Below are positions 29,828-32,747 of a DNA stretch of 37,006 nucleotides, one piece after another. Positions within the stretch are counted from its first letter, which is position 1; each line of letters begins with the position of its first letter. This DNA comes from Gammaproteobacteria bacterium (GTDB lineage Bacteria; Pseudomonadota; Gammaproteobacteria; Thiohalomonadales; Thiohalomonadaceae). The position numbers and the translations under genes are program-made. The stretch is taken from positions 1 to 37,006 of the forward strand of contig JAPHSX010000035.1 of assembly GCA_026196575.1 (NCBI GenBank), given 5' to 3'. The notes beneath the pieces are model-generated. The model was given only the letters and a program-made list of their open reading frames with translations. It was not told the DNA's origin and ran no database searches.

Positions 29828-29912
29828 AAATACCTTCATATCGGGGTTTTGCCGGGCCGGCAAAGTCTACCCAAGCCGTGGGAAACTACAAGCGGCGGGC
29901 GGTAGAGGCGTG

Positions 29913-29941
29913 ATTTTACAGGATAGGTAGGGTGATGACAC
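29913..29941 (-). promoter_or_regulatory. Probable rnf operon promoter
   Basis: On the minus strand, GTGTCA (29941-29936) and TAAAAT (29918-29913) are spaced by 17 bases. They resemble sigma-70 -35 and -10 boxes about 85 bases upstream of the rnfA start. Confidence 0.5.
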
Positions 29942-29997
29942 GGGATTTAAAGGGGCAGCAGGGCGAGAACGCACTACTTTTTATATGAAAATTACGC

Positions 29998-30095
29998 GGT
30001 GTAAGTGATTGATAGCAGGTTCGCCGTGAATACCTCCCTGCAGGCTCGACCGCCGCATCCCTGCGGCAGACGACCTGCTATCAACCACTTACACC
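29998..30095. repeat. 98-base palindromic element with 23-base terminal inverted repeats
   Basis: The ends 29998-30020 and 30073-30095 are inverted repeats with 22 of 23 bases matching (GGTGTAAGTG...). The 52-base middle contains a second short hairpin (GCCGCA/TGCGGC). No coding capacity. It looks like a MITE or REP-like dispersed element in the gap between rnfA and higB. The rest of that gap (29828-30190) holds the rnf promoter and the higBA control region. Confidence 0.7.
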
Positions 30096-30149
30096 ACATC
30101 CAGATATGAGTATGCGCTCACCCTGGGTCATCGCCCACCCTGCAACTAA

Positions 30150-30184
30150 TAACGTTTGACGTTAATAACGTGTTGCGCTACTAA
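30150..30184 (+). promoter_or_regulatory. higBA promoter with embedded operator palindrome
   Basis: A perfect inverted repeat TAACGT-TTG-ACGTTA (30150-30164) overlaps a good -35 TTGACG (30156-30161). A weaker -10 TACTAA lies 17 bases on (30179-30184). TAATAACGT is repeated just downstream. This suits autorepression by HigA. Confidence 0.55.
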
Positions 30185-30190
30185 TGGCGC

Positions 30191-30472
30191 ATGATAAGGA
30201 GCTTCAAATCCAGGGAAACGGAGCAGCTATTCCATCGTGAGGCCTCTCGCCGCTTGCCTGCAAATATCCAGCAGGTGGCGCTGCGTAAACTTCGCATGCT
30301 TGATGCTGCAACCATACTGGATGATTTGAGGATTCCCCCGGCCAACCGTCTGGAGGCATTGCGAGGTAATCGCAAAGGCCAACACAGCATACGCATCAAT
30401 AACCAATGGCGTATCTGTTTCAGCTGGAAAGACGGTAACGCCTACGACGTAGAAATTGTTGATTACCACTAG
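30191..30472 (+). CDS. higB: HigB/RelE-family toxin
   Basis: A 93-residue mRNA-interferase-type toxin. ETEQLFHREASRRLP at the N-terminus, the central LRMLDAATILDDLRIPPANRLEAL, and the C-terminal HSIRINNQWRICFSWKDGNAYDVEIVDYH match the HigB branch of the RelE/ParE superfamily, including the conserved R-x-N-x-Q-W-R-I strand. Such toxins cut mRNA at the ribosome. The gene precedes the antitoxin by nine bases, the toxin-first order characteristic of higBA. It sits in an accessory island beside integron-like genes, where such pairs are common stabilising elements. Confidence 0.92.
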   Translation: MIRSFKSRETEQLFHREASRRLPANIQQVALRKLRMLDAATILDDLRIPPANRLEALRGNRKGQHSIRINNQWRICFSWKDGNAYDVEIVDYH

Positions 30473-30481
30473 GAGTCAACC

Positions 30482-30781
30482 ATGGCAAAGAGAAAGCTCA
30501 ACCCCATACACCCCGGCGAGATCCTACTCGAAGAGTTTCTCAAGCCGATGGAGATCAGTCAGTACCGGCTGGCCAAGGATATCCATGTCCCGGCACGCCG
30601 CATCAATGAAATCGTGCATGGCAAGCGAGCCATCACGGCAGACACCGCACTGAGGCTGGCCCGTTACTTTGGCAACAGTGCAGAGTTCTGGAGTAATTTA
30701 CAGAGTGCCTATGAGCTGGATGTGGCGCGTCAGGAGATTGGTGGGAAGTTGGAGAAAGAGATTGAGCCGGTGGCGGCATGA
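30482..30781 (+). CDS. higA: HigA-family antitoxin
   Basis: A 99-residue Xre-type DNA-binding antitoxin. NPIHPGEILLEEFLKPMEIS is the family start. The helix-turn-helix lies at about 26-60 (QYRLAKDIHVPARRINEIVHGKR), and ADTALRLARYFGNSAEFWSNLQ is the conserved helix pair. It neutralises HigB and represses the operon, probably through the palindrome at 30150-30164. The ribosome site AGGAG lies at 30471-30475, overlapping the higB stop. The length is normal and nothing looks damaged. Confidence 0.93.
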   Translation: MAKRKLNPIHPGEILLEEFLKPMEISQYRLAKDIHVPARRINEIVHGKRAITADTALRLARYFGNSAEFWSNLQSAYELDVARQEIGGKLEKEIEPVAA

Positions 30782-30877
30782 AGGGATCTGGATTTGCTCT
30801 GAGCCACAGTGTTTATTTCCGTGTGTTTTTACACTGAGCCTAAATATCCTAAATATGGCTAAATAGACACCGCAAAA

Positions 30878-30909
30878 CCAAAAAGCGTAATGTCAAAACC
30901 TGACCCCTT
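30878..30909 (+). repeat. Direct copy of the island-flanking repeat
   Basis: The sequence begins CCAAAAAGCGTAATGTCAAA and ends in CCTGACCCCTT. It is a diverged direct copy of the repeat at 30947-30981, about 70 bases upstream of it, in the spacer after higA. The spacer 30782-30946 shows no gene. Confidence 0.75.
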
Positions 30910-30946
30910 TACGTGCTTTATCGATTTTGAATGGTTCTAAGGGGAT

Positions 30947-30981
30947 CGCCAAAAAGCGTAATGTCAAGACCTGGCCCCGTT
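30947..30981 (+). repeat. Left inverted repeat flanking the HNH-NYN island
   Basis: A 35-base sequence starting CGCCAAAAAGCGTAATGTCA and ending CTGGCCCCGTT. It matches the reverse complement of 32629-32662 at all but two substitutions and one single-base gap. It ends seven bases from the HNH stop codon. Confidence 0.8.
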
Positions 30982-30987
30982 CTCCTC

Positions 30988-31827
30988 CTATTTCTGGAAT
31001 CCCACACTGGTCGTTTCATCCCGCAACAAAATTACTTCATCGTCGTTTGGCGTTTCGGGAAAGTCAATTCTCGGGATCACGCCAAGGTCCAGGTCAATCT
31101 GTTCTAATTGATCTGGCCCGATACTTTTGTTCGGTACCAGCTGAGGTAAGTTAAGCGACACGTCGGCTGGGCGTTTCCATAGCACCCAGAATCCGAACGG
31201 TAAGAATTTCAGAATGTGGCCGAACAACACACCACGTCTTCCCAATGAAATCTTTGCGGAGTTCTTGACTACCACTTGCCTCCGCCCTGGGTAAATCCAG
31301 AAATAGATGTCTAGTTCTTCTGGAAGTGGTTCGTTCTCATTGAGAAAGTAATGACGGAGTGCGTTCGGGAATGGTGCGGATAGAAGACCACTCGTAGCCT
31401 CTTCCACTGCAGTCGCAGCCAGGACATGTCCAATAACCGACCTTGCTACCTTTTGCGGCCTGATAAACACTGAAACATGACGAGGAAGTACTATCCGCTT
31501 TTCTTTTGTTGACAGAGCGATATTAGTTGCTTCATTGGTTAACCGTACGAGTTCTGGATCGTACCTGGTTCCTAGCCTGTACGAGTTGCACCGCTCACAA
31601 AGAGTACGGAAATGCGCTCCACCCTGCGAAAAGGTCTTTGGCGCTTTTGAGTTTGGTACGACTCCTGTATGAAGTATTTGCAGCACGACGTCCCTGTTAT
31701 TGTTACAGCCCTCAGGGGGGACATGATCTCTTGTCAGCTTCCCATATTCACCACAGATCACGCAAAAGCCTTGCTCCGGTCCACGTGTAAGAACACGCTT
31801 AGCTAGTTGTCTGGAGAAATTTCCCAT
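30988..31827 (-). CDS. HNH-type zinc-binding protein (putative endonuclease)
   Basis: A 279-residue protein with an N-terminal treble-clef/HNH-like motif: C22-x2-C25, D34-H35 (GKLTRDHVPPEG) and C77-x2-C80 followed by N81 (LCERCN). The rest, about 85-279, has no motif I recognise; it includes ALRHYFLNENEPLPEELDIY and KFLPFGFWVLWKRP. HNH domains nick or cut DNA, and proteins of this layout are frequent in mobile and defence loci, but the target is unknown. Base composition is clearly more A/T-rich than the housekeeping genes. The ATG lies 13 bases after the end of an attC-like core, as expected for the next gene in a cassette array. Confidence 0.75.
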   Translation of the reverse strand: MGNFSRQLAKRVLTRGPEQGFCVICGEYGKLTRDHVPPEGCNNNRDVVLQILHTGVVPNSKAPKTFSQGGAHFRTLCERCNSYRLGTRYDPELVRLTNEATNIALSTKEKRIVLPRHVSVFIRPQKVARSVIGHVLAATAVEEATSGLLSAPFPNALRHYFLNENEPLPEELDIYFWIYPGRRQVVVKNSAKISLGRRGVLFGHILKFLPFGFWVLWKRPADVSLNLPQLVPNKSIGPDQLEQIDLDLGVIPRIDFPETPNDDEVILLRDETTSVGFQK

Positions 31828-31833
31828 TTTGCG

Positions 31834-31881
31834 TTCTAACGGCGCATTCAGCGGCTTGTCCGCTGCAATGCATTGTTACGC
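31834..31881 (-). other. attC-like integron recombination site
   Basis: Read on the minus strand: R'' box GCGTAAC (31881-31875), spacer AAT, arm GCATT-G-CAGCGG, loop ACAAG, arm CCGCTG-AATGC, spacer GCC, and R' core GTTAGAA (31840-31834). The arms pair over 11 bases with a single extrahelical G. That is the layout R''-L''-L'-R' with unpaired central spacers known for attC sites. The total of 48 bases is shorter than commonly described attC sites (about 57 and up). The NYN stop codon TAA lies inside R''. R'' is exactly complementary to the core GTTACGC at 32621-32615 ahead of the same gene. Confidence 0.75.
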
Positions 31882-32598
31882 GACATTTTTTGCCCTAATA
31901 TATATGTGCACATGCATAGAATCTTCCCCAAAGGTTCTTTCCTGAACTTCTAAATAATCCAGGTATCTCACCAACTTTCCGAGCTTATCGTATCCGTAAT
32001 TTCGTGGATCGAACGAAGGCGTGTTCTTATTGATATAGCTTCCAACTGCCGACAGCGGCGCCCAACCGTCATCCCTAGATACCGCATCTATTGCCGACAT
32101 GACAATCGCCTTTAGTTCAGGGTTCTTAGATTCATCAGATTTGTCCGACTCTTTAAGCTGGCGCAATATTTCTGTATATACAAACTTGTCACAAGCAGAA
32201 ACAAATGGCTCTGGAGTTTTCTTTTCGCCAAATCCATACACTACCAATCCGCTCTCCCGCAGTCTGTTTGCCAGCCGCGTAAAGTCGCTATCTGAGGATA
32301 CGAGGCAGAAGCCATCTAACTTACCTTCATGAAGCAGATCCATTGCATCAATAATCAAGGACGAATCTGTTGCATTTTTTCCTTGCGTATAGCTAAATTG
32401 CTGAACAGGTTGTATTGCATGTTTGTGTAGATGTGCCTTCCACCCTTTCAGATTGGTTGTCGTCCAATCACCATAAGCTCTTTTGACGCTTGCCACTCCA
32501 AGCTTTGAAATTTCCGCCAGCAACTCGGCACAAACTGATGCTTGTGCATTATCCGCATCTATGAGCACGGCCAGCTTATTGTTTCCATTTTCAGCCAT
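31876..32598 (-). CDS. NYN-domain (PIN-like) ribonuclease with C-terminal OST-HTH/LOTUS domain
   Basis: A 240-residue protein. The NYN nuclease fold spans about 8-145, with the acidic set D14 and D16 (VLIDADNA), D78 and D84 (ATDSSLIIDAMDLL) and D103/D105 (LVSSDSDFTRLANRLRESG); all appear intact. This group includes LabA/MARF1-type proteins. After a short charged linker (about 148-162) comes an OST-HTH-like domain (about 163-238; MSAIDAVSRDDGWAPLSAVGSYI, YGYDKLGKLVRYLDYLEV), thought to bind RNA. The predicted role is RNA cleavage, perhaps in stress or phage defence. The gene is A/T-rich for this genome. It is framed by integron cassette boundaries and lies upstream of the HNH gene on the same strand. 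Confidence 0.85.
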   Translation of the reverse strand: MAENGNNKLAVLIDADNAQASVCAELLAEISKLGVASVKRAYGDWTTTNLKGWKAHLHKHAIQPVQQFSYTQGKNATDSSLIIDAMDLLHEGKLDGFCLVSSDSDFTRLANRLRESGLVVYGFGEKKTPEPFVSACDKFVYTEILRQLKESDKSDESKNPELKAIVMSAIDAVSRDDGWAPLSAVGSYINKNTPSFDPRNYGYDKLGKLVRYLDYLEVQERTFGEDSMHVHIYIRAKNVA

Positions 32599-32614
32599 TT
32601 AGATACCCCTTGCT

Positions 32615-32621
32615 GCGTAAC
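32615..32621 (-). other. Integron cassette 5' core GTTACGC
   Basis: On the minus strand GTTACGC sits 17 bases before the NYN start codon. Recombination between its G and TT would define a cassette of 781 bases ending at 31840. The seven bases are the exact reverse complement of the R'' box GCGTAAC of the attC at the gene's 3' end, as expected when a circular cassette re-forms its own site. Confidence 0.6.
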
Positions 32622-32628
32622 GAACACA

Positions 32629-32662
32629 AACGGGGCCAAGTCTTGACATCACGCTTTTGGCG
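32629..32662 (-). repeat. Right inverted repeat flanking the HNH-NYN island
   Basis: A 34-base sequence, inverted relative to 30947-30981 and nearly identical to it. It lies just outside the NYN cassette core and ahead of the metG 3' end. Together the two copies bracket 1647 bases. The remaining gap to metG (32663-32747) shows nothing further. Confidence 0.8.
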
Positions 32663-32747
32663 TCACCTTAAAGCCCCTCATGGTGATGCTTATTGATTTC
32701 CAATTGGACACCGGGGGAACACGGTCGCTCCTTTCCCTTTCTGCCCG

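Follow-up and report, generated by a model that had tools for sequence, protein, structure and literature searches.

A predicted NYN/OST-HTH ribonuclease gene very probably carried as a single-attC integron gene cassette between metG and rnfA

The window, a 37,006-nucleotide stretch of a genome from the gammaproteobacterial family Thiohalomonadaceae (assembly GCA_026196575.1, contig JAPHSX010000035.1, here C20), contains an rnfA-metG interval (29864-32747) that proved to be extra DNA when compared with ten same-family relatives: the metG-rnfA gap measures ~50 to 300 bp in those ten genomes and 2.9 kb in the window. The chromosomal placement of this island rests on its neighbors metG and rnfA, the assembly consisting of 74 contigs. 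The island holds the NYN cassette described below, an HNH-type gene, three REP-like repeats, and a HigB toxin-HigA antitoxin pair (30191-30781, plus strand; Pfam HigB-like, 1.6e-22; TIGR02607 HigA, 2.1e-34) at which no attC was found. A large inverted repeat, GGTGTAAGTG.TTGATAGCAGGT (minus strand, 29990-30100), adjoins HigBA.

The NYN gene (31876-32598, minus strand) is codirectional with metG, which ends 150 nt upstream of it, and encodes a 240-aa protein in which Pfam identifies an NYN (PIN-like) ribonuclease domain (3.9e-39) and a C-terminal OST-HTH/LOTUS domain (2.9e-17), both of them clear. The conserved acidic active-site residues are present as well, with D14, D16, D78, D87, D103, and D105 invariant in 29 aligned NYN sequences. 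An AlphaFold model with a mean pLDDT of 75 has structural counterparts in two solved OST-HTH domains of bacteria and, with an E value of about 1e-3, in the NYN domains of MARF1. The protein thus shares two domain types with the MARF1-type NYN plus LOTUS/OST-HTH ribonucleases, and the NYN part of its model matches MARF1, although it is bacterial, only 240 aa long, and equipped with a single OST-HTH domain. The product is probably a MARF1-like RNase, and an RNA-binding ribonuclease is our best guess for it; such a protein would bind RNA through OST-HTH and cut it through the NYN active site, much as MARF1 does. A scan with a simple consensus yielded no sigma-70-like promoter upstream of the gene. 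Since the cassette leaves no room for a promoter of its own and metG is codirectional, metG read-through would be the likeliest source of expression.

The TAA stop codon of the NYN gene is contained in the R'' box, GCGTAAC (31881-31875, minus strand), of a 48-nt attC site (31834-31881, minus strand), the R' core of which, G|TTAGAA(C) (31840-31834, minus strand), forms a second core 3' of the hairpin. Since an Rfam search of the 28- to 35-kb region matched no relevant family, we built an attC covariance model (R1) from 22 aligned attCs, which were taken from arrays adjoining integron integrases in unrelated gammaproteobacteria and did not include the window site. This model scored the site at 32.5 bits, with E values of 6e-6 for the 37-kb window, searched with filters off, and 4.4e-4 for the 2.74-Mb genome; these E values are rough owing to a short calibration, which does not affect the bit scores. 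The runner-up in the window reached 8.6 bits, leaving a single attC in the 37 kb. The window site, GCGTAACAATGCATTGCAGCGGACAAGCCGCTGAATGCGCCGTTAGAA, agrees closely with the consensus of the 22 attCs, GCCTAACAAnnCnTTCCAGCGGAC...GCCGCTGAAnTCnGnCGTTAGGC. Folded as single-stranded DNA, the site pairs its boxes and forms a hairpin stem with one bulged G (-12.0 kcal/mol; z, -2.8), such that the R'', L'', L', and R' boxes and an extrahelical base are recognized by model and fold together. The attC-like hairpin with one extrahelical G that had been described over the NYN stop codon is therefore confirmed, in the region and against the whole genome, by a model of our own making.

A looser position-weight scan also places this site first in the window, like the covariance model, whereas a strict handwritten attC regular expression did not recover it, its R' being GTTAGAA and its terminal loop nearly absent. 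The attC is short because the variable terminal structure is almost absent, which in turn makes its recombination activity uncertain; recombination by an integron integrase at this attC is a tentative prediction from sequence.

The opposite end of the proposed cassette carries a left core, G|TTACGC (32621-32615, minus strand; crossover between 32621 and 32620), which, as had been claimed, matches the R'' box exactly as its reverse complement, so that a circular form of the element would regenerate its own attC. Between the two crossover points lie 781 bp (32620-31840, minus strand), the size given earlier, filled by one compact open reading frame that runs from 16 nt after the core through the R'' box; the core does precede the NYN start, albeit with a core-to-ATG gap of 16 nt rather than the 17 first reported. 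In a control set of 1,689 open reading frames of at least 100 aa each, an exact NNNNAAC/GTTNNNN end match near the stop codon occurred in 8 (0.5%), and a core/R'' match with R'' over the stop codon occurred in only 2, namely, the window NYN gene and a homologue from a Kiritimatiellae metagenome-assembled genome (MAG).

That homologue (locus L046; 60% identity) has the core GTTAGGC and the R'' box GCCTAAC, with a 16.8-bit attC after the gene and another of 29.4 bits upstream by the covariance model; its cassette has the architecture of the window cassette, and only the letters of the boxes differ. Another NYN homologue (69% identity), from a Victivallales MAG (L032), starts 11 nt past the end of a 20.4-bit attC. 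Homologues in Billgrantia, Halomonas, Oceanobacter, KSB1, Alteromonas, and Spirochaeta carry an R''-like GYGTAAC or GCCTAAC over their stop codons; no complete attC was recognized there. In the NYN gene tree, which is patchy, the window protein groups most closely with Halomonadaceae (90%) and with a Desulfobacteraceae MAG (88%; MAG contigs may be misbinned), and the gene is absent from the same-genus genome. We found no flanking DNA common to the window and the compared NYN homologues.

These data also bear on whether the site might be a plain intergenic hairpin or terminator that resembles attC and lies opposite a coincidental core match. Such an explanation would suit a site that is single and short and that folds with a modest z-score of -2.8. 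However, the covariance score stands well above all else in the window, core and R'' are matched, no terminator-like site is called there, and homologues carry attCs of their own, so we regard an ordinary hairpin as very improbable. Given the independent attC model, the core/R'' pair, the insertion between metG and rnfA, and the cassette homologues in other phyla, the cassette reading proposed in the initial annotation is supported, the defense or stress role attached to it being the part that is not. We put the probability that the NYN gene truly represents a cassette of integron origin at roughly 0.9, a figure that covers its identity and neither its insertion route nor its function.

The HNH-type gene (30988-31827, minus strand; 279 aa) starts 6 nt past the attC and has a weak Pfam HNH_5 match below the cut-off. 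No attC of its own was found in the window. In another draft genome, G382, an HNH homologue with 57% identity across the N-terminal 71 aa begins ~13 nt past a 21.7-bit attC, and on a Vibrio alginolyticus plasmid a further homologue sits among attCs. Because these homologues adjoin attCs, the HNH gene very probably represents a second cassette, from which the attC has been lost. Neither this probable second cassette nor the REP repeats bordering the pair featured in the initial annotation. The HNH cassette of G382 is itself interrupted by a different repeat, GGGGTCAG, and attCs are scattered in that single draft genome over contigs C4, C21, C30, C46, C58, C85, C103, and C142, reflecting an array that the assembly broke apart or else numerous stray cassettes. 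We also considered NYN and HNH as a conserved two-gene system and rejected it, the HNH gene that follows NYN on a Klebsiella plasmid being not recognizably related.

Integrons are known to store phage defense genes (PMC12409362), but we found nothing that supports the suggestion that the NYN cassette has a defense or stress function. Neither NYN nor HNH matched any PADLOC model, and no conserved defense neighborhood was seen around the NYN gene. Both proteins match PHROG families, and no relatives of either were found in viral contigs. The cassette may serve stress, regulation, or phage defense, the last being only a possibility. It is also conceivable that NYN, HNH, and HigBA together form a mobile defense or toxin locus to which the attC is incidental, as the presence of HigBA within the same island and the known storage of defense genes in integrons might suggest. 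We consider this improbable, given the lack of PADLOC matches for NYN and HNH, an NYN-HNH pairing that is not conserved (the Klebsiella plasmid gene precedes an unrelated HNH protein), and the absence of flanks common to the window and the NYN homologues.

Returning to the cassette itself, the locus combines one attC with the lack of an integrase, contig C20 having no match to an integron integrase (IntI). "No integrase in view" was thus a correct description of the window; it does not extend to the genome, in which a profile search found two IntI genes above the family cut-off on other contigs, C17 and C29. The covariance model further located a seven-attC array on C4 and additional stray attCs on C70, C31, and C7; next to the C4 array is an open reading frame similar to the N-terminal extension carried by the C29 integrase. 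Given the two IntI genes and the other attCs, the window cassette may have been mobilized in trans by a host integrase. The C17 integrase was considered as the source and rejected, its surroundings being phage-like genes and atypical attC-like repeats rather than a classic array.

A single attC lacking an integrase is termed a SALIN in the usage of PMC12690207, and the window locus is a SALIN by that convention; a CALIN needs two attCs, which is also the default threshold of IntegronFinder 2 (PMC9024848), so that the window site would go unreported under default settings. Like other SALINs and CALINs, the locus pairs attC with cassette genes and no nearby intI, the host integrase genes being elsewhere in the genome, but it differs from typical cases in having two probable cassettes, one recognizable attC, and REP repeats at the borders of the pair. 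The cassette is a known type of element, and the modest surprise lies in its cargo and the spread of that cargo. It represents a natural single-attC chromosomal cassette outside any integron in a host that encodes integron integrases, and single-attC orphan cassettes of this kind are likely undercounted because the standard tool reports a locus only from two attCs upward. The cargo adds a predicted RNA-binding ribonuclease to those known from cassettes. Predicted RNases and toxins of the HEPN and RelE types likewise occupy single-gene integron cassettes (PMC3710099), whereas we found no description of NYN-OST-HTH as an integron cassette gene in the literature searched. A broader proposal, that NYN-OST-HTH constitutes a cassette family dispersed by integrons among Pseudomonadota, Kiritimatiellota, Lentisphaerota, and perhaps more phyla and acts as an RNA-targeting defense or dormancy gene, is speculative, and we think it unlikely.

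How the cassette entered the island is less clear than what it is. No attI or attC lies upstream of the left core, and a REP repeat begins 12 bp away, so insertion at an attG site and a truncated array both fit. An integron integrase would act in trans on the folded single-stranded attC, and the circular cassette would enter a secondary, attG-like G|TT site or a small array; an array would later be trimmed, bounded by REP repeats, and leave one attC, formally a SALIN. Insertion at the left-core G|TT would imply the empty-site junction TGTGTTCG|TTAGAACGC. Within the genus, metG has a different neighborhood and no strict empty site turned up, and the short metG-rnfA intervals of the ten relatives are too diverged for the G|TT junction to be read. 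Cassette insertion at attG sites has been described by Loot et al. (2024), as cited in PMC12444791 and PMC12901181. Compared with the work as it is represented in those two papers, the window likewise has a cassette edge at a chromosomal G|TT without attI, but it is a natural case in which the exact empty site was not found and the route is one that we infer.

The REP-like repeats, which a genome-wide pattern search located, offer another route. One copy (30956-30976, minus strand) lies directly after the HNH stop codon, where a second attC would be expected, a second copy lies at 30885-30905 (minus strand), and a third (32634-32654, plus strand) lies 12 bp outside the left core. The genes could accordingly be real cassettes from an array fragment moved here by REP/RAYT-linked recombination or rearrangement rather than by an integrase. 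Such a route is compatible with the REP copies that flank the cassette pair, with those located inside the C4 array and next to the attCs of C7 and C31, and with a RAYT gene in the host genome. A left edge exactly at the core G|TT is, however, unexpected from REP recombination alone, and the REPs may have arrived later; we judge this route rather unlikely.

Several observations concern the repeats and integrases of the host genome more generally. RAYT-type REP repeats (GGGGTCAGGTCTTGACATTACGC) cluster at its attC loci. Of 10 copies, 7 lie within ~1 kb of an attC (C4:19693, C4:21572, C7:36521, C31:61448, and window positions 30885, 30956, and 32634), and these fall in 4 of the 5 loci other than the RAYT gene itself, although attC neighborhoods make up only ~0.6% of the genome by our own post hoc estimate. 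A Y1_Tnp (RAYT-like) gene at C31:121886-122803 (L218:1130-1981) is flanked by inverted copies of the GGGGTCAGGTCTTGACATTACGC-type REP and is likely the parent of the host repeats. At C17:7711-9600 (L096), the integron integrase adjoins phage-like recombination genes, and the C17 array is atypical in that its modules have matching GTTA/TAAC boxes and small open reading frames that begin inside the attC-like repeat. The integrase N-terminal extension is duplicated (L190:4710-5294 and L097:1-226), being fused to the full C29 integrase and truncated near the C4 array. Finally, many class-wide IntI matches have open frames of 430 to 520 aa, compared with the 315 positions of the family model.
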